Positions 1 through 6,216 of a DNA stretch of 6,216 bases are shown piece after piece. Every line of letters starts with the position of its first letter. Positions within the stretch are counted from its first letter, which is position 1. Made by a program: the position numbers and the translations under genes. The stretch lies in assembly GCA_948468465.1 (NCBI GenBank), contig CAOKJJ010000246.1, positions 1 through 6,216 of the forward strand. The letters run 5' to 3'. The DNA comes from an uncultured Eubacterium sp. GTDB taxonomy: Bacteria > Bacillota_A > Clostridia > Lachnospirales > Lachnospiraceae. Under the pieces are notes generated by a model, which worked only from the letters and a program-made list of their open reading frames with translations, was not told the DNA's origin and did not search any database.

Positions 1-688
1 TCACAATCTCCAGCAATTCTTTACTCATGCTAACATCTCCCATCCATTCTTTTAAGATCTGAATATTTGCCCTGAATGCTACTTCAAGAACAGCTTCTGC
101 ATATTCCCTGTCCAGTTTTCCAGTAAGCTGCCGCATTTGCTCCATTAGATTTTGTAAATCCTGCTTTTCCAGCTTTCCTGACAGTGCCCTGAGCCAGACG
201 TGCAGTTCTGGCTTTAGTTCTTTTGTAACGACAATCTGGGCTGGAAATAGTATATTGCCCGTGATGTAATAGATGCCTTTAAAGGGGCTTGATACCTGAT
301 AACCGTGTTCCTGAAAATACGCAAACAGACCGGACGGTTTATTATCACGGACAAATGTCATGGTTATATCGTTTTCGGCAATGGCGTCAACCGTTTTGCC
401 GTAGGATTTATAGAGGCAGGCATAACCTTCCACTTTGAAAAAGACGTCTATGTTCAGGCTGTCAACAGGGTCTTTGTATTCTATAATGTTATGGCCCCTG
501 AAAATGCAGCCGATTTCATTGTTGATGGACAGGTCTGCCTGATTTTTTGTGATCAGAAGGTCTATGGCCAACGGCTTCATGTTCAGGTTATATTCCCTGT
601 CGAATCTCAGGCTGTCCCGGCAGTCAGCCATTTCCAAATTCATGGCGGCAATAAATGCCGGATGCCACTGTATTTTTGTATTACTCAT
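1..688 (-). CDS. PD-(D/E)xK-fold protein, C-terminus outside window (partial)
   Basis: The frame is open from an ATG at 688 down to the left edge, giving 229 residues with no stop, so the gene is cut by the window and not broken. The start has AAAGGAG (696-702) seven bases before it. Residues about 40-75 carry a PD-(D/E)xK-like core: D43 in 'IDLLI', then E70-Y71-K72 in 'HNIIEYKDP', with E58 on the preceding helix. This matches a restriction-endonuclease-like nuclease fold; no signal peptide or membrane segment is seen, so it is probably cytoplasmic. The rest (about 110-215) is alpha-helical and charged. I recall close relatives as common multicopy proteins in Lachnospiraceae, often with misleading names, but I cannot name a tested function or substrate. 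It is transcribed away from the Rpn gene and has its own promoter. The presence of a gene is near certain; the fold is likely; the role is unknown. Confidence 0.8.
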   Translation of the reverse strand, partial: MSNTKIQWHPAFIAAMNLEMADCRDSLRFDREYNLNMKPLAIDLLITKNQADLSINNEIGCIFRGHNIIEYKDPVDSLNIDVFFKVEGYACLYKSYGKTVDAIAENDITMTFVRDNKPSGLFAYFQEHGYQVSSPFKGIYYITGNILFPAQIVVTKELKPELHVWLRALSGKLEKQDLQNLMEQMRQLTGKLDREYAEAVLEVAFRANIQILKEWMGDVSMSKELLEIV

Positions 689-713
689 ATGAGAACTCCT
701 TTATCGTATATCG

Positions 714-742
714 ATTATAGCATATTTTTTGTGATGTTACAA
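714..742 (-). promoter_or_regulatory. Sigma-A type promoter of the leftward PD-(D/E)xK gene
   Basis: Reading the minus strand, TTGTAA (737-742) is followed by a 17-base spacer and a perfect TATAAT (714-719). The -10 is extended by TG one base upstream (TGCTATAAT). Transcription would start near 707, leaving about 20 bases of leader that contain the AAAGGAG ribosome binding site. This is the best -35/-10 pair in the window. No operator-like repeat is evident around it. Confidence 0.75.
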
Positions 743-862
743 ACTTTATTGCATATTTGTTTTTATAGTAATATCAAATTGGCAGTTTTAGCACGCCCGT
801 GTTCTACAAAAATTATACAAAACTGCTGGCTGGAAATCTTTCTATGGGAGCCGCGGGATTGA

Positions 863-1042
863 ATGTACACTGCCGGCAGGCAGAACCTTCTGGCGGGCTG
901 CTTTGCCCTGGACGCTGTCCTTAAGGAAATAAAAACCGGGGACTGGAAGTCTTCCGGCATACAGCGGGTAGTGCTGAAGACAAGGGACAATTATCTGTAC
1001 CAGGGGGGCTGGCGGGCGTCTTTTCATATGGGAGATGCATGA
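863..1042 (+). pseudogene. Possible 5' remnant of an RNase H-like gene (59-codon fragment)
   Basis: A 59-residue frame starts at ATG 863 and stops at 1042. The ribosome binding site is weak (GGGAG at 846-850, 12 bases away). Residues about 16-48 line up without gaps with the middle of RNase H1-type domains: 'ALDAVLKEI' resembles the conserved A-E-L-x-A-V segment, a Trp and a Gly follow at the usual spacing, and 'VVLKTRDNYLYQG' resembles the V-x-I-x-T-D-S-x-Y-V strand. The catalytic Glu and Asp positions are replaced by Ala and Arg, so the product would not be an active RNase H. The natural continuation lies in another frame from 1035. I infer a decayed gene; the family match is from memory and tentative. 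A short real gene of unknown function is the alternative. Confidence 0.4.
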
Positions 1043-1319
1043 GTGGATGGTCAAAAACGACGGCACAATTACGGAAAGGGCGAACCGGGACCTCTGGGAA
1101 GACATGGCGGATACCCTGAATGAGTATAGAGACAGAGGCATGAAAGTGGCGGCGCAGTTACTTCACCAGGAGAAATACCCTATCCTCAGTACGCTTGAGG
1201 CAAACCCGATTACGCTTGCGCTGGAGGCGTCAAATGGGACAGACCTTATGAAAGACAGATGGTTTGAGGAAACTTTCGGGGGTGCTGGCAAAAAATGCTG
1301 GCCGGAAGCCGGGGCATGA
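1035..1319 (+). pseudogene. Possible 3' remnant of the same RNase H-like gene (94-codon frame)
   Basis: This frame overlaps the previous one by 8 bases (ATGCATGA) in a different phase and runs 94 residues. It opens with 'MHEWMVKNDG' and 'ANRDLWEDM', which matches the W-x(n)-N-R-D-L-W signature of RNase H1 domains, followed by a helix and 'RGMKVAAQLL', where those proteins have G-x-x-V-x-F-W. The last third ('LSTLEANPITLAL' onward) shows no recognisable C-terminal active-site Asp segment. The ATG has GGAG directly against it, which is poor spacing, so independent translation is doubtful; translational coupling through the overlap is possible. Both fragments in order suggest one ancestral protein split by a frameshift between about 1003 (a run of six G) and 1040. 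A two-protein coupled pair is the alternative. Low to moderate confidence. Confidence 0.4.
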
Positions 1320-1355
1320 ATTTTGTAAATTTGTGTGGCTGCCTTTTGGAAAGTA

Positions 1356-1364
1356 TGGTACAAT
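1356..1364 (+). promoter_or_regulatory. Extended -10 promoter before the Rpn nuclease gene
   Basis: TGGTACAAT gives an extended -10 (TG, one base, TACAAT at 1359-1364). The hexamer 17 bases upstream (TGGCTG, 1336-1341) is a poor -35, which extended -10 promoters tolerate. Transcription would begin near 1371, just before the AGGAG at 1375-1379. The position is upstream of the Rpn gene with no terminator between. Confidence 0.5.
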
Positions 1365-1384
1365 GACTGGTAACAGGAGCGGGC

Positions 1385-1438
1385 ATGTATGATGGAAAAT
1401 ATAAAAAGCGTCATACAGCAGCGGCCGTGCATGGCTAA
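1385..1438 (+). CDS. Possible 17-residue leader peptide before the Rpn gene
   Basis: ATG 1385 is preceded by AGGAG (1375-1379) with five bases between, and the frame ends at TAA 1436-1438. The peptide MYDGKYKKRHTAAAVHG is basic and has no run of one amino acid, so it is not a classic amino-acid attenuator. Its last codons and stop lie inside the GC-rich hairpin at 1421-1452, so a ribosome here would melt the 5' arm. It could instead be a chance ORF whose ribosome binding site serves the in-frame ATG at 1389 of a longer Rpn form. No homologue is known to me. Confidence 0.3.
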   Translation: MYDGKYKKRHTAAAVHG

Positions 1439-1452
1439 TCCTGTGCGGCCGT
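1421..1452 (+). other. GC-rich RNA hairpin in the leader of the Rpn gene
   Basis: GCGGCCGTGCA (1421-1431) can pair with TGTGCGGCCGT (1442-1452) over 11 base pairs, three of them G-U, with a 10-base loop. The core is two direct copies of the self-complementary CGGCCG. No T run follows (CCTGTTCC), so it is not an intrinsic terminator. It ends about 30 bases before the AGGAGG of the Rpn gene, so a role in translation control or RNA stability is possible but unproven. Confidence 0.45.
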
Positions 1453-1493
1453 CCTGTTCCAAAGAAGATACAGCCAGATACAGGAGGAAGATC

Positions 1494-2333
1494 ATGAAAA
1501 AACTACGGTACACTTTTAAAACTGACACGCTGTTCAAGATGCTGTTTGTAAAGTATCCGGAACTTTTGAAGGAACTGGTTGCAGAACTTCTCGGGATTCC
1601 GCTGGAAAGCATTGAAACGTTTACCATAAAGAATCCGGAAATGCCGCCGGAAAACCTTGGCGACAAGTTCTGCAGGCTGGATATCAATATGACAGTGAAC
1701 GGCCAGCAGGTCGACCTAGAGGTGCAGGTCAGCAATGAGGGCGATTACCCGGAGAGGGTGATGTACTACTGGGCGAGGGAGTTTTCATCAGCGCTGCTTA
1801 CCGGGCAGGGCTATTCAGCACTGCCGCGCACAATCGTTATCAGTATTATAGATTTTCCACTGTTTGAATGTGAAGAATACCATTCTTTCTTCCAGCCGCT
1901 AGAAGCCACGCGCCATACACTGCTGTCGGATAAAATGGGGTTCCATTTCTTTGAGCTTCCAAAGCTGCCGGATGATGCAAACCAGGAGGATATGCTGCTG
2001 CTGTGGCTTTCGCTGTTCAAGGCGGATACGGAAGAAGAACTGGAAAGGATTAAGGGAATGGAGGTGCCAGTTATGAGCCAGGCGATCAATGCTTATTATA
2101 CGATTACGGCTTCGTCAGAGTTCCGTGAGAAAGAACGGCTCCGGGAAAAAGCAAGACACGATGAGGCACAGGCATTGTATAATGCAAGACGAGAAGCAAA
2201 ACGGGAAGCAAGACGTGAAGAGAAATTTGAAATTGCAAGGAAGCTTATTAAGCGTAACAGACCAGTTAGTGAAATTGCAGAAGATACAGGACTAATGTAT
2301 GAGGAAATAGAGCAGTTACGTATCAGGATGTGA
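1494..2333 (+). CDS. Rpn-family recombination-promoting nuclease / putative transposase
   Basis: The product has 279 residues, usual for this PDDEXK_2 group. The ATG at 1494 is chosen because AGGAGG (1482-1487) lies six bases before it and the conserved N-terminus 'YTFKTDTLFKMLF' begins right after; in-frame ATGs at 1389 and 1392 would add about 35 unconserved residues. The catalytic core is visible: D63 in 'CRLDINM' and E76-V77-Q78 in 'VDLEVQV', the D...(D/E)xQ variant typical of Rpn proteins. It is followed by 'YPERVMYYWAREF' (85-97). Residues about 205-260 form a highly charged helix of Arg/Glu/Lys, and the end (about 261-275, 'VSEIAEDTGLMYEEIEQL') resembles a small helix-turn-helix tail. 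Members are cytoplasmic DNA endonucleases linked to RecA-independent recombination and, in E. coli, to toxicity and phage limitation. It is a single gene ending at a strong hairpin. An internal start is described separately. Confidence 0.88.
   Translation: MKKLRYTFKTDTLFKMLFVKYPELLKELVAELLGIPLESIETFTIKNPEMPPENLGDKFCRLDINMTVNGQQVDLEVQVSNEGDYPERVMYYWAREFSSALLTGQGYSALPRTIVISIIDFPLFECEEYHSFFQPLEATRHTLLSDKMGFHFFELPKLPDDANQEDMLLLWLSLFKADTEEELERIKGMEVPVMSQAINAYYTITASSEFREKERLREKARHDEAQALYNARREAKREARREEKFEIARKLIKRNRPVSEIAEDTGLMYEEIEQLRIRM
2073..2333 (+). CDS. Candidate gene-within-gene: C-terminal Rpn short form (intragenic antitoxin type)
   Basis: An in-frame ATG at 2073 (residue 194 of the Rpn protein) is preceded by GGAGGTG (2060-2066), a seven-base match to the anti-Shine-Dalgarno, with eight bases between GGAGG and ATG. 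That is as good as the site of the main gene. The product would be 86 residues, starting 'MSQAINAYYT', made of the charged helix and the C-terminal helix-turn-helix-like tail, and lacking the nuclease core. A second in-frame ATG at 2058 has AAAGGA (2044-2049) eight bases before it and would give 91 residues. In E. coli, rpn genes are reported to encode such a short C-terminal protein from an internal start, and it blocks the toxic full-length nuclease. Applying that here is inference. The purine-rich GGAGGTG also encodes Met-Glu-Val, so chance cannot be excluded. Confidence 0.5.
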   Translation: MSQAINAYYTITASSEFREKERLREKARHDEAQALYNARREAKREARREEKFEIARKLIKRNRPVSEIAEDTGLMYEEIEQLRIRM

Positions 2334-2343
2334 TCAGGCACAC

Positions 2344-2391
2344 AGGGCTTGGAATATATAATTGTTATAATTCCAGGCTCTGTTCTTAATT
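2344..2391 (+). terminator. Probable terminator hairpin after the Rpn gene
   Basis: AGGGCTTGGAAT (2344-2355) pairs with ATTCCAGGCTCT (2370-2381). The stem continues inward as TATAA/TTATA around a TTG loop, with one bulged A, giving 17 base pairs including two G-U. The following GTTCTTAATT is only moderately T-rich, so release may be imperfect. It begins 10 bases after the Rpn stop codon. Confidence 0.65.
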
Positions 2392-2527
2392 CAAGAGTAA
2401 TGATTAAGCTGCCAGATGTCGGCATATGTTTTTTTGATCTGCTCTATTGATAGTGAATAGATAACGTATAACTAGTACAGCATTGCAGAAATTAGAGTAT
2501 GTGACTGCTTTGGGCGTTTGCGTCAGC
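2382..2527. other. Gene-free spacer with weak hairpins
   Basis: This is the first part of the 340-base gap between the Rpn and GH94 genes. I see no convincing ORF or tRNA. TGCC/GGCA (2410-2413 and 2421-2424) with a run of seven T at 2429-2435 is a weak second terminator candidate. TCTATT/AATAGA (2443-2448 and 2456-2461) is a six-base inverted repeat with a seven-base loop and no assigned role. Confidence 0.4.
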
Positions 2528-2556
2528 AATCTGATATTTTTCTATGGAATCTGATA
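2528..2556 (+). promoter_or_regulatory. Direct repeat AATCTGATA x2, candidate AraC-family operator
   Basis: AATCTGATA occurs exactly at 2528-2536 and again at 2548-2556, 20 bases start to start, close to two helical turns. AraC-family activators typically bind two direct half-sites about 20-21 bases apart, with the downstream one touching the -35. Here the second copy overlaps the candidate -35 at 2555-2560. An AraC-family gene lies at the far end of the GH94 gene. The repeat is seen; the binding is inferred. Confidence 0.5.
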
Positions 2557-2583
2557 GAAGTAGCGCCGTAAAATGAGTAAAAT
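2555..2583 (+). promoter_or_regulatory. Candidate activator-dependent promoter for the GH94 gene
   Basis: TAAAAT (2578-2583) is a five-of-six -10, with TAGAAG (2555-2560, three of six) 17 bases upstream. A poor -35 abutting the AATCTGATA repeat fits a promoter that needs an activator. It would give a leader of about 85 bases. A competing -10 lies at 2636-2641. Confidence 0.35.
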
Positions 2584-2632
2584 AGCAATATCGTTCACAG
2601 AAACGTTGATCCGGCCGGGGTTGCTGCAACAA

Positions 2633-2641
2633 TGATACAAT
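2633..2641 (+). promoter_or_regulatory. Alternative extended -10 close to the GH94 gene
   Basis: TGATACAAT contains TG, one base, and TACAAT (2636-2641). The hexamer 17 bases upstream (2613-2618, GGCCGG) does not resemble a -35. Transcription would start near 2648, inside the inverted repeat at 2640-2654, leaving about 25 bases before the ATG. The palindrome GTTGCTGCAAC (2620-2630) sits just upstream and could be an operator. Confidence 0.3.
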
Positions 2642-2654
2642 AACAAAATGTTAT
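2640..2654. repeat. Inverted repeat ATAACA-AAA-TGTTAT before the GH94 start
   Basis: ATAACA (2640-2645) and TGTTAT (2649-2654) are perfect inverted arms around AAA. It overlaps the alternative -10 and ends six bases before the AAGGAGG ribosome binding site (2661-2667). It could be a repressor site or a weak RNA hairpin; with a three-base loop and AT-rich stem, a DNA site is more likely. Confidence 0.4.
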
Positions 2655-2673
2655 AGAAAAAAGGAGGAATTAG

Positions 2674-5394
2674 ATGCAGAGCATACATTATATAGATCAG
2701 GATGGGACATTTTCTATCGAGCAGCCGGAAAATTACAGTTATCTGTATTTTCCGATTGCCGGGGAGGATGGTTTAAAAAGCTCGGTAACACCGAATCTGG
2801 GAGGAGACATAAAGATCAACCAGAACGCATTTCTAATGGAGCCAGTCAGTGTGGAAAATCTGCATAATAACCGTTCCGGCAGAAATTTCTGGTGCAGGAT
2901 GGCGGATGGCTGCTGCTGGTCTGCCGTTGGGGCATCCGCAGAGCAGGAGAGCAGAAAATTTACAGATAAACAGGATGCAAGTGTGCTGCGCGCAGGACTG
3001 ATGTGGCATACGGTGACAAGAAAATCTGTGCGGCATACGCTGGAAGCAGAAGTGACGTCTTTTGTGCCGCTGGAACATCCGGCGGAGGTTATGCGGGTTA
3101 CGCTGCGCAATACGGGAAGTGAAGCGCTGACACTGACGCCTGTGGCGGCTGTGCCGATTTTTGGCAGAAGCGCGGACAATATTCGTGACCACAGGCACGT
3201 GACATCGCTGCTGCATCGAATTTGGACGACGGATGACGGCGTCTACGTCCGCCCGGCACTGTCGTTTGACGAACGTGGTCATCGGAAAAATGAGCTGATT
3301 TATTTTGTATGTGCAGCCGGCGCGGACGGGCAGAAACCGTGTGGGTTTTATCCGGTGACGGAAGATTTTATCGGTGAAGGCGGCAGTTATACAAATCCGC
3401 AGAAGATACGGGAAAATGCTGCTGGCGAAGCTGCCGGATACCGGACAGAGGGGAAAGAGGCCGTAGGTGGTATCCGTTTTGATGAAATCTGCATTGCGCC
3501 AGGAGAACGAGCTGAATATACGGTCGTTATGGGCATTACGGACAGGGAGGAACAAATCGGGGAAATTATGGATGCGTTTCGGACAGCAAAGCAGGTAGAT
3601 GCTGCGTTTTGCCAGATGAAGCAGTACTGGCAGGAAAAAGTAAATGTCCGCTACCATACAGGAAGCTGCACGTTTGACCGGTTTTTAAGATGGGTAAGCT
3701 TCCAGCCGCTGTTAAGGAGAATTTATGGCTGCTCGTTCCTTCCGTACCACGATTATGGCCGGGGCGGCCGGGGCTGGCGGGATTTGTGGCAGGACTGCCT
3801 GTCGCTGCTGATGATGGATCCGGGCGGCGTGCGTCAGATGATCGTGGATAACTGCGGCGGTGTACGCGTTGACGGTACAAATGCTACGATTATTGGATCC
3901 GGGCAAGGGGAATTTATTGCAGACCGCAATGGCATTGCGCGTGTCTGGATGGACCATGGGGTATGGCCGTTTATGACGATCCGGCTCTATATAGACCAGA
4001 CTGGGGATGTGGAGATTTTAAGGGAAAAGGCTGTATATTTTAAAGACGAGCAGATAAAGCGGGGCTGTGGGTTGGATACGCATTGGGACAGCACGTATGG
4101 CGTACGGCAGAAAAACCAGAACGGGGAAATTTATGAAGGAACCGTGTTGGAGCATTTGCTGCTGCAGATGTTGTGTGCTTTTTATGAGGTCGGAGAGCAC
4201 AACCATATTCGCCTGCGTGGCGCGGACTGGAATGATGCTTTGGATATGGCGCCGGACCGTGGTGAAAGCGTGGCGTTTACGTGTGCGTATGCAGGAAACC
4301 TGATGCATCTGGCGCAGATGCTGATGCAGTTGTCTGAACGGTTTGGCTGGAAGCAGGTAGAGTTTATGGAAGAGATGGGTGTGCTGCTACAGGATGAAGC
4401 AGAGGTCTATGACAGTATTTCGGTAAAACAAGAGCTTTTACGGCAGTATGTGCAGACAGTCAGCCACCAGGTCAGCGGCAGGCGTATGTCTGTGGATGTA
4501 AATGAGCTGGCGGAAAACCTAAGGCATAAAGCAGAATGGATGCAGGAGCATATTCGCAAAACGGAGTGGATACAAGGGGATCAGGAAGGTTGGTTTAACA
4601 GCTACTACGATAATCATGGAAATGCCGTTGAGGGGTATTGCGGCCAGGGTGTGCGGATGATGCTGACTGGCCAGGTGTTTGCGGTAATGAGCAAAACCGC
4701 GGATGACCAGCAGACAAGGCAAATCTGTAAAAGCGCGGATCGGTATTTATATGATGCAAAAGCAGGGGGATACCGTCTCAATACGAATTTCAACGAAGAA
4801 AAATATGATATGGGAAGGATGTTTGGGTTTGCCTATGGGGAAAAAGAAAACGGGGCAGTCTTTTCGCATATGACTGTAATGTACGCAAATGCGTTGTATC
4901 AAAGAGGATTTGTAAAAGAAGGATTTCGTGCGCTGCAGACGCTGGCGGATACGGCGATGGACTTTGCGGTAAGTAAAATCTATCCGGGCATTCCGGAATA
5001 TTTTAACCGGGACGGAAGAGGGATGTACCATTACCTGACAGGCGCAGCGAGCTGGTATATGCTTACAATGGTAACGGAAGTGTTTGGGGTGCGTGGAGAG
5101 ATTGGCGATCTTCTCATACAGCCGAAGCTGTTAAGCGGGCAGTTTGATGAACAAGGCTGTGCAGGTATTGCGCTGACATTTGCAGGCCAATGCTTTGAGA
5201 TAACGTTTGATAATCCGCACAGGCTGTCCTATGGGGAATATGAGGTACACGACGCTGTCTGCGATGGCACATGCCTGGCTGTAAACGGTGCGTCTGCGGT
5301 TATGGAAAGAAGCCGGATCCAACAACTCCAGGACGGCGTACATAAGATCCGGGTTACGTTGGGAAGGCGCCAGCCAAGCGGCGGCACACAGTAA
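2674..5394 (+). CDS. GH94 family inverting glycoside phosphorylase (beta-glucan disaccharide type)
   Basis: This complete 906-residue gene starts six bases after AAGGAGG (2661-2667). GH94 enzymes use inorganic phosphate to split a beta-glycosidic bond, releasing alpha-sugar 1-phosphate with inversion. Domains follow the family order: N-terminal beta-sandwich (about 1-290), linker helices (about 295-340), an (alpha/alpha)6 barrel (about 340-805) and a C-terminal beta domain (to about 895). The general acid is D518 in 'RGADWNDALD'. Phosphate-site residues are visible as R369 in 'GWRDLWQD', H732 in 'FSHMTVMYANALY', and T789-G790 in 'YLTGAASW'. No signal peptide is present, so it acts in the cytoplasm on an imported sugar. 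The substrate is not certain: cellobiose and chitobiose enzymes are about 800 residues, and this length is closest to laminaribiose (beta-1,3) phosphorylases of about 910. No transporter is in view, and a convergent AraC regulator follows six bases later. Confidence 0.9.
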   Translation: MQSIHYIDQDGTFSIEQPENYSYLYFPIAGEDGLKSSVTPNLGGDIKINQNAFLMEPVSVENLHNNRSGRNFWCRMADGCCWSAVGASAEQESRKFTDKQDASVLRAGLMWHTVTRKSVRHTLEAEVTSFVPLEHPAEVMRVTLRNTGSEALTLTPVAAVPIFGRSADNIRDHRHVTSLLHRIWTTDDGVYVRPALSFDERGHRKNELIYFVCAAGADGQKPCGFYPVTEDFIGEGGSYTNPQKIRENAAGEAAGYRTEGKEAVGGIRFDEICIAPGERAEYTVVMGITDREEQIGEIMDAFRTAKQVDAAFCQMKQYWQEKVNVRYHTGSCTFDRFLRWVSFQPLLRRIYGCSFLPYHDYGRGGRGWRDLWQDCLSLLMMDPGGVRQMIVDNCGGVRVDGTNATIIGSGQGEFIADRNGIARVWMDHGVWPFMTIRLYIDQTGDVEILREKAVYFKDEQIKRGCGLDTHWDSTYGVRQKNQNGEIYEGTVLEHLLLQMLCAFYEVGEHNHIRLRGADWNDALDMAPDRGESVAFTCAYAGNLMHLAQMLMQLSERFGWKQVEFMEEMGVLLQDEAEVYDSISVKQELLRQYVQTVSHQVSGRRMSVDVNELAENLRHKAEWMQEHIRKTEWIQGDQEGWFNSYYDNHGNAVEGYCGQGVRMMLTGQVFAVMSKTADDQQTRQICKSADRYLYDAKAGGYRLNTNFNEEKYDMGRMFGFAYGEKENGAVFSHMTVMYANALYQRGFVKEGFRALQTLADTAMDFAVSKIYPGIPEYFNRDGRGMYHYLTGAASWYMLTMVTEVFGVRGEIGDLLIQPKLLSGQFDEQGCAGIALTFAGQCFEITFDNPHRLSYGEYEVHDAVCDGTCLAVNGASAVMERSRIQQLQDGVHKIRVTLGRRQPSGGTQ

Positions 5395-5400
5395 TATGTT

Positions 5401-6141
5401 TCACCAGGAAGTACGGTAAAATTTGTCACGGTATTTTTTGGGAGTCAAACCGACCGATTTTTTAAAAGTCTGGATAAAATGGCTTTGTGAGGAAAAAGCC
5501 AGATAATTTGCAATTTCGATCAGACTGTAATCGGAATATTTCAAAAGATGCTGGGCTTTTTCGATCTTTTTTTCGCTGATATAGGTGCTGATTGCCACAC
5601 CAAGCTCTTGTTTAAACAGCCGTGATAAATAACTGGTGGACAGGCCTGTATAATCTGCAAGCTCTTCGATGGTAAGGCGGCTGTTCAGGTGGCTGTAAAT
5701 ATAGTCCATACAGCGGATAACGGGTTTTGAAATCACACTTTCTTTTTTCAAGAGCAGCATTTTGCCTGTATAATCCAAAACCATGCTGTCATGCAGCTTG
5801 CAGATGGCCGGGATGGATGTACAGGCATCCATTTTTAATATATAGAAATCACTCAGGCGGTACGCCTGTTCCAATTCCATACCAGCCTCCACGCAGTGGC
5901 GGACAATCATCGCGACCGTTACGACAAAATGATATCTCATGTTAGTAAGCGGGTCAGGAGAAAGTACACCCATGCCATTCGGGCTTGCAAACGTATTCTG
6001 GAGGCAGTTTTCCTGCACAAAATTAATATCGCCAGAGCTGACGGCATGGTAAAACGCATATTCTTCTTCTAATGGGCGGTGCGCAAGGCAGTCTTCGGCG
6101 GCCAGAAGCTCCTGCTGCTGCCATTCTTTTTGCAGATCCAT
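5401..6141 (-). CDS. AraC-family transcriptional regulator
   Basis: The product has 246 residues from the ATG at 6141, chosen because AGAAAGGA (6148-6155) lies six bases before it; the frame stays open upstream to an ATG at 6198, which lacks such a site. Residues about 156-181 ('LTIEELADYTGLSTSYLSRL') are the first AraC helix-turn-helix and about 205-238 the second, ending in the family hallmark 'GLTPKKYR'. The N-terminal half (about 1-135) is alpha-helical, not a cupin, and has the 'NMRYHFVVTVAMIVRHCVEAG' and 'AYRLSDFYI' segments I associate with a Clostridia subgroup; its ligand is unknown. It probably activates the GH94 gene, which it faces tail to tail, through the AATCTGATA repeat upstream of that gene. 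No copy of that repeat is seen in the 75 bases upstream of this gene, and no clear promoter is visible before the window ends. Confidence 0.9.
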   Translation of the reverse strand: MDLQKEWQQQELLAAEDCLAHRPLEEEYAFYHAVSSGDINFVQENCLQNTFASPNGMGVLSPDPLTNMRYHFVVTVAMIVRHCVEAGMELEQAYRLSDFYILKMDACTSIPAICKLHDSMVLDYTGKMLLLKKESVISKPVIRCMDYIYSHLNSRLTIEELADYTGLSTSYLSRLFKQELGVAISTYISEKKIEKAQHLLKYSDYSLIEIANYLAFSSQSHFIQTFKKSVGLTPKKYRDKFYRTSW

Positions 6142-6216
6142 ATTCATTCCTTTCTGAACATTAGAGCGTGTTTGAAAAATCATTCCTGCCATCTGCATTC
6201 CCCACTTTGCGTGATA

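Follow-up and report, generated by a model that had tools for sequence, protein, structure and literature searches.

Introduction

The question raised by the rpn gene in a stretch of 6,216 nucleotides from an uncultured Eubacterium sp. (contig CAOKJJ010000246.1; the whole stretch is hereafter the window) is whether a second, shorter gene lies within its reading frame. Genes of this kind are widespread and have long been annotated as transposases. The original prediction, made from the sequence alone, pointed to an antitoxin encoded inside the gene, after the example of Escherichia coli, where rpn genes also make a short form, RpnS, which in the case of RpnA is the antitoxin (Zhong et al., 2023; PMC10327210, cited throughout for the part of it covered here). 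The elements concerned are the following:

1494–2333, + strand: rpn gene, encoding the nuclease RpnL of 279 amino acids, from ATG 1494 to the stop codon TGA at 2331–2333
2060–2066, + strand: internal Shine-Dalgarno (SD) sequence GGAGGTG, with GG(A/G)GG in 77 of 81 genes
2073–2075, + strand: internal start of RpnS, ATG, residue 194 of RpnL
2073–2333, + strand: short form RpnS, 86 amino acids, presumed antitoxin, an in-frame open reading frame (ORF)

The internal SD and ATG 2073 are indeed present and in frame with the rpn ORF, and the product lengths that had been proposed, 91 and 86 residues, agree with the codons left from ATG 2058 and ATG 2073, both in frame. Counting both strands, the window has 247 ATG triplets, and eight of them are preceded at suitable spacing by an SD match of at least 6 nt: those at 1494, 2674 and 688 (−) open predicted genes, 6141 (−) is the likely start of an AraC-type gene, and 1735, 2058, 2073 and 3725 are internal. 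In a single sequence such a pair could be due to chance, because the peptide MEVPVM permits an SD, and it is conservation that decides. The window gene thus has an in-frame ribosome-binding site (RBS) and start codon ahead of its C-terminal part, a feature of the RpnL/RpnS arrangement. From the sequence and by analogy with E. coli, we hold it very likely that rpn is a gene within a gene, in which RpnL would be made from 1494 and RpnS, made from 2073, would restrain it.

Conservation of the internal start in close homologues

DNA loci were fetched from GTDB genomes by means of a protein alignment of 29 sequences (A1), and the best 80 of 146 relatives, plus the window gene, made up a set of 81. 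Because the search patterns sit at residues 3–64, the choice of loci was unbiased by the region of interest. Going by record titles, the source genomes belong to Lachnospiraceae, Oscillospiraceae, Treponema, Synergistales and others, many of them being metagenome bins whose labels may err.

In the codon alignment of these genes, codons 189–191 read mostly NNG-GAG-GTR or NNG-GGG-GTG, and every gene has a start codon at position 194, ATG in 77 genes and GTG in four. Residue 189 varies among M, L, T, S and W and residue 190 among E, G and K, yet the SD bases stay: the seven bases are GGAGGTG in 41 genes, GGGGGTG in 16, GGAGGTA in 15 and other forms of GG(A/G)GG in five, with departures in four. 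We infer that GGGGG could still pair with the anti-SD through G-U wobble. All 81 genes have their in-frame start at this fixed spacing. Loss of the SD or of the start from genes that keep the protein, which had been named beforehand as the outcome that would speak against the prediction, is rare: four genes depart from GG(A/G)GG, and none lacks ATG or GTG at codon 194.

It had also been proposed to ask whether these bases are kept more strictly than protein coding demands, and for ATG 2073 the comparison of homologues clearly bears this out. For the third-base test the set was thinned to 70 representatives (<85% nucleotide identity), the null being synonymous draws following each gene's own usage. 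The strongest third-base constraint among 274 columns is that of codon 190, followed by codon 191 (z 13.9 and 11.8; all-column mean 1.4), and the third base of codon 189 is G in 70 of 70 representatives, although this codon encodes L, M, T, S or W. When z is averaged in stretches of three codons, 189–191 is the highest (10.8), the next being 115–117 (7.3). E190 is written GAG in 50 of 50 cases, versus 974 of 2262 elsewhere in the same genes; G190 is GGG in 17 of 19 (196 of 803 elsewhere), L189 is TTG or CTG in 40 of 40 (1258 of 2349) and V191 is GTG or GTA in 64 of 67 (452 of 983).

Since related genes share codons, parsimony counts of changes on a FastTree tree of the 70 genes were added, covering 246 columns. 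Codon 189 has undergone no third-base change versus 15 amino-acid changes, and codon 190 two versus 12, while codon 191 has ten third-base changes; the median per column is 23, and the lowest value besides 189 and 190 is nine. Selection holds the internal RBS and start of rpn.

The same test brought out a separate signal at codon 116, with a strong third-base bias toward C (z 11.4, third of 274), for which no explanation was found. The stretch concerned, residues 114–116 (window 1833–1841), is second in strength to the internal RBS.

Internal starts in the wider PDDEXK_2 family

The wider set comprised all loci except that of E. coli, with six loci from viral contigs pooled in; 208 ORFs match the model built here, 192 of them at full length. 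Thinned to <75% protein identity, the latter left 98 genes, of which 46, counting the window gene itself, are like the window gene (at least 45% identity) and 52 are more distant. The junction peptides of the 52 distant genes differ (EEFAM, EEIAM and others), and in 32 of these genes an SD of at least 5 nt with an in-frame start is found at residues 180–194, versus 11.4 (sd 2.6, maximum 18) in 200 synonymous shuffles. At residues 195–209 the same feature occurs in 10 genes versus 3.6 expected (maximum 8), and at residues 210–224 there is no excess (8 versus 5.0 expected, maximum 10). Under a lenient count at residues 175–225, allowing GGGGG, GGGGT, GTG and TTG, it is present in 43 of the 46 and 47 of the 52 genes; the shuffle control covers the counts made by interval.

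Among the 46 window-like genes, 30 carry the SD and start even with GGGGG uncounted. Synonymous shuffling still leaves them in 14.8 of the 46, which is what may be said for chance, that is, for a peptide MEVPVM that just happens to spell an SD and a start; the observed number nevertheless exceeds the maximum of 22 among the shuffles (n = 200), and the third-base ranks and tree counts also oppose this explanation, which is refuted by these results together and keeps a negligible probability.

SD-like sequences within genes have been proposed as a cause of ribosome pausing. The conserved motif could accordingly mark a pause site after the nuclease part, with no initiation. Pausing, however, can do without a start codon and is indifferent to reading frame, and the start stands at fixed spacing in every one of the 81 close homologues. 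Moreover, the 146 SD-like 5-mers at residues 175–225 of the 98 genes are followed 4–11 nt later by an ATG that is in frame in 78 cases and out of frame in nine; for the 365 SD-like 5-mers elsewhere, the numbers are 13 in frame and 23 out. This in-frame excess fits initiation rather than pausing, and we regard a pause site as very improbable.

The starts sit in unrelated peptide contexts, so that evolution would preserve an internal start even as its place in the gene and the surrounding protein change. It appears likely that intragenic antitoxins are general and selected in the PF12784 branch, with an SD and start that are mobile within about 45 residues of the nuclease/tail junction and lie in unrelated peptides, and with an antitoxin that is longer than the E. 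coli type by an extra helix.

As to the distribution of the family, of 249 genomes sampled from the phylum of G001, the genome of the closest locus (L001), 49 have PF12784 matches, and tblastn returned five phage records and 168 plasmid records, the latter all below 60% identity. G001 itself has 21 PF12784 matches in total, and its contig C2 carries at 111763–121083 a tandem array of seven near-full-length matches (L082, L086, L089, L092, L095, L104 and L107), in which the number of 4-residue repeats varies, and one short C-terminal match.

Alternative starts

Two other starts within the gene have to be weighed. ATG 2058 was put forward in the original prediction together with AAAGGA, and the pair is present (AAAGGA at 2044–2049, 8 nt before the ATG), but neither element is conserved: codon 189 in the 70 representatives is TTG in 29, ATG in 26, CTG in 11, ACG in two, TCG in one and TGG in one, and the proposal fails on this point. 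TTG 2175, behind GATGAGG with GAGG 8 nt before the TTG, would give a product of 52 amino acids resembling the 49-residue short form of RpnA, and its codon 228 lies opposite M244 of the E. coli protein in a profile alignment (probability 72, of modest confidence). Homologues do not keep this start codon, which also reads TTA, CTG, CTC, CTT and ATT and has 19 third-base changes on the tree, and residue 228 sits within a long predicted helix. That initiation takes place at ATG 2058 (91 amino acids) or at TTG 2175 instead of ATG 2073 deserves, in our estimate, very little credence. As for the messenger, the RNA around the internal start is predicted to fold, if anything, less stably than expected by chance (−7.8 kcal/mol, z +1.33; in 186 of 200 shuffles the folding is as good or better).

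The short product and known Rpn systems

An AlphaFold run with an alignment of 71 sequences (A2) gave a mean pLDDT of 90, with 75–84 at residues 211–230. In the predicted structure M194 lies near the start of helix 192–206, after a loop, and RpnS would consist of most of this helix, a long helix at 208–253 and two short helices. The short form had been described as containing only the charged helix and the tail, which has to be corrected, as it also takes in helix 192–206 and the last 36 residues of the PDDEXK_2 match. The long helix carries the repeats:

2184–2220, + strand: 12-nt tandem repeat, 3.1 copies (TRF), encoding the 4-residue repeats in the long helix

The QAL anchor and the helix motif that follows it are 6, 10, 14, 18, 22 or 34 residues apart, all 2 mod 4, and these 4-residue steps hold in all of the 120 homologues listed of 2460, so that repeat variation is present in the family. 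This length variation is the hypervariation of RpnS described by Zhong et al. (PMC10327210). In the same homologues (P0001–P0120), the last ~30 residues form several tail types on nearly identical nuclease cores, which suggests tail swapping.

The comparison with E. coli K-12 RpnA (L081) shows one design with a displaced start. In both, a nuclease gene, presumed in the window to be of PD-(D/E)XK type, has an in-frame internal RBS and ATG before its C-terminal helical part, both proteins match TIGR01784, and both show the 4-residue repeat variation. RpnA has AAGGAG before M244 and a short form of 49 residues to the end, which has been solved (chain 7th0, RpnA residues 244–292). Unlike RpnA, which belongs to PF04754 (Transposase_31), the window protein belongs to PF12784 and its short form has 86 residues. 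Homologues do not preserve a start at codon 228, its counterpart to M244, and by the profile alignment the internal start of the window gene is situated about 34 residues further upstream.

The original prediction had seen in this gene an extension of the system to Gram-positive bacteria. Such a short form is indeed reported for Clostridioides difficile, whose rpn gene, cloned in E. coli, gave RpnS and lost it on mutation of the predicted RBS and internal translation initiation site (iTIS), a Gram-positive case with the same dependence as is proposed here; the step is not new, however, since it was already reported by Zhong et al. (2023; PMC10327210). In the part of that article covered here, the genes behind the broad conservation of RpnS are those of E. 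coli and a single one of C. difficile.

By this analogy, the following mechanism may be proposed. Initiation at 1494 would yield the 279-residue nuclease RpnL, and GGAGGTG with ATG 2073 would yield the 86-residue RpnS, composed of helix 192–206, the repeat helix and a helical tail. As in RpnA, RpnS would use its repeat helix to pair with the corresponding part of RpnL, and would hold the nuclease off until the balance is upset, in the E. coli work by phage infection. Ribosome initiation at 2073, the binding and inhibition of RpnL by RpnS and the limitation of phages by the pair are presumed for the window because they are carried over from Zhong et al. (PMC10327210). It could also be that RpnS is made without being chiefly an antitoxin, serving as a structural partner of the nuclease, for which Cas11d, which completes a Cascade complex (cited in PMC10327210), offers a parallel, or as a DNA-binding regulator through its helix-turn-helix-like tail; we consider this unlikely.

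Free-standing and decayed copies

Relatives of the window gene also carry the short form alone, as does E. coli in YpaA/RpnE(S) (PMC10327210); they differ from it in belonging to the PF12784 branch and in that the homology begins at about the internal SD. A Megamonas funiformis plasmid (L115) has, directly after an rpn gene, a short RpnS-like ORF whose SD and ATG occupy the equivalent position. In a 6.7-Mb genome of a relative of G001, the match of a locus (L133) to the window begins only at 2048, 12 bases ahead of the SD; both GGAGGTG and the ATG are retained there.

Twenty chosen loci contain 11 distinct short frames resembling RpnS that run as far as the tail without being cut by an edge, and eight of these have an SD-like site (by a loose pattern) and an in-frame start, those of L196, L124 and L126 being without. 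The SD and short frame are kept with the long frame broken or absent in L118, L123, L133 and L001/L117, while parts of the short form are lost in L122, L124, L125 and L142. In protein databases, 64 of the 120 short proteins listed (of 443) start at residue 194, which lends weak support because gene finders favour strong RBSs.

Several of these results weigh against the reading of rpn as a gene within a gene. Four of the 81 close homologues depart from GG(A/G)GG, and on the tree M194 was replaced by V (GTG) just once, so that this change adds little. Counting ATG with a Watson-Crick SD only, the feature is found in 25 of the 46 window-like genes and 42 of the 52 others, and it is absent even leniently in three and five, respectively (L047, L055, L043, L112, L159, L217, L192 and L111). 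Decayed copies, of which some retain the short form and others have lost parts of it, give no sign of its selective retention. A search of 1300–2700 gave no internal promoter on the + strand for a short transcript like that of E. coli; the single sigma-70-like site there is on the − strand. Finally, the repeats begin at residue 231, 37 residues after M194, versus 8–20 residues after the short-form Met in Zhong et al. (PMC10327210).

The full-length protein and its surroundings

The remaining features of the gene concern the full-length product:

1482–1488, + strand: RBS of full-length rpn, AGGAGGA, a 6-nt SD match at suitable spacing to ATG 1494
1680–1682, + strand: D63, presumed active-site residue, D in 80 of the 81 aligned genes with a gap in the other one
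1719–1727, + strand: E76-V-Q78, presumed active-site motif, E76 and Q78 in 81 of 81 aligned genes

D63 and E76-V-Q78 we take to be the active site, as in PD-(D/E)XK nucleases. The window protein matches PF12784 (PDDEXK_2) with 143.5 bits, up to residue 229, and belongs to the Rpn family by its match to TIGR01784 (151.6 bits at residues 9–275, cut-off 52.1). Among solved structures no sequence relative of it was found (best E 0.33), Foldseek gave no significant match and the VIA second look was without 7th0; no PADLOC-DB model matches it or E. coli RpnA, and an Rfam scan of the window gave no family at its cut-off.

The closest locus, L001 (contig CAJTCR010000012.1, from a Eubacteriaceae genome), is 99.3% identical across window 1–5330. 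The loss of a single base close to codon 10 (around position 3007 of the locus, about 1520 in the window) breaks its long rpn frame; this deletion may be real or an assembly error, and the RpnS part is still open.

Downstream of rpn, a GH94-family gene with a good RBS (2674–5394, +) is convergent with the AraC-type regulator (5401–6198, −; likely start 6141). The ORFs at 2–688 (−), which has a good RBS and extends past the window edge, and at 1035–1319 (+) have no Pfam, NCBIfam or PADLOC match.

Concluding remarks

In the literature searched, with the supplement of Zhong et al. and most subscription papers outside its scope, there is no prior codon-level test and no upstream start of this kind in the PF12784 branch; the codon-level evidence of selection and the longer RpnS, starting about 34 residues upstream of the E. 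coli position, are therefore apparently new. If the proposal is true, the gene-within-gene design would be a rule for the PF12784 branch, and annotators would learn where the short protein starts. The third-base screen would offer, besides, a simple search for other hidden in-frame starts. In turn, the shifted start raises the question of what the extra helix contributes to the specificity of the antitoxin.
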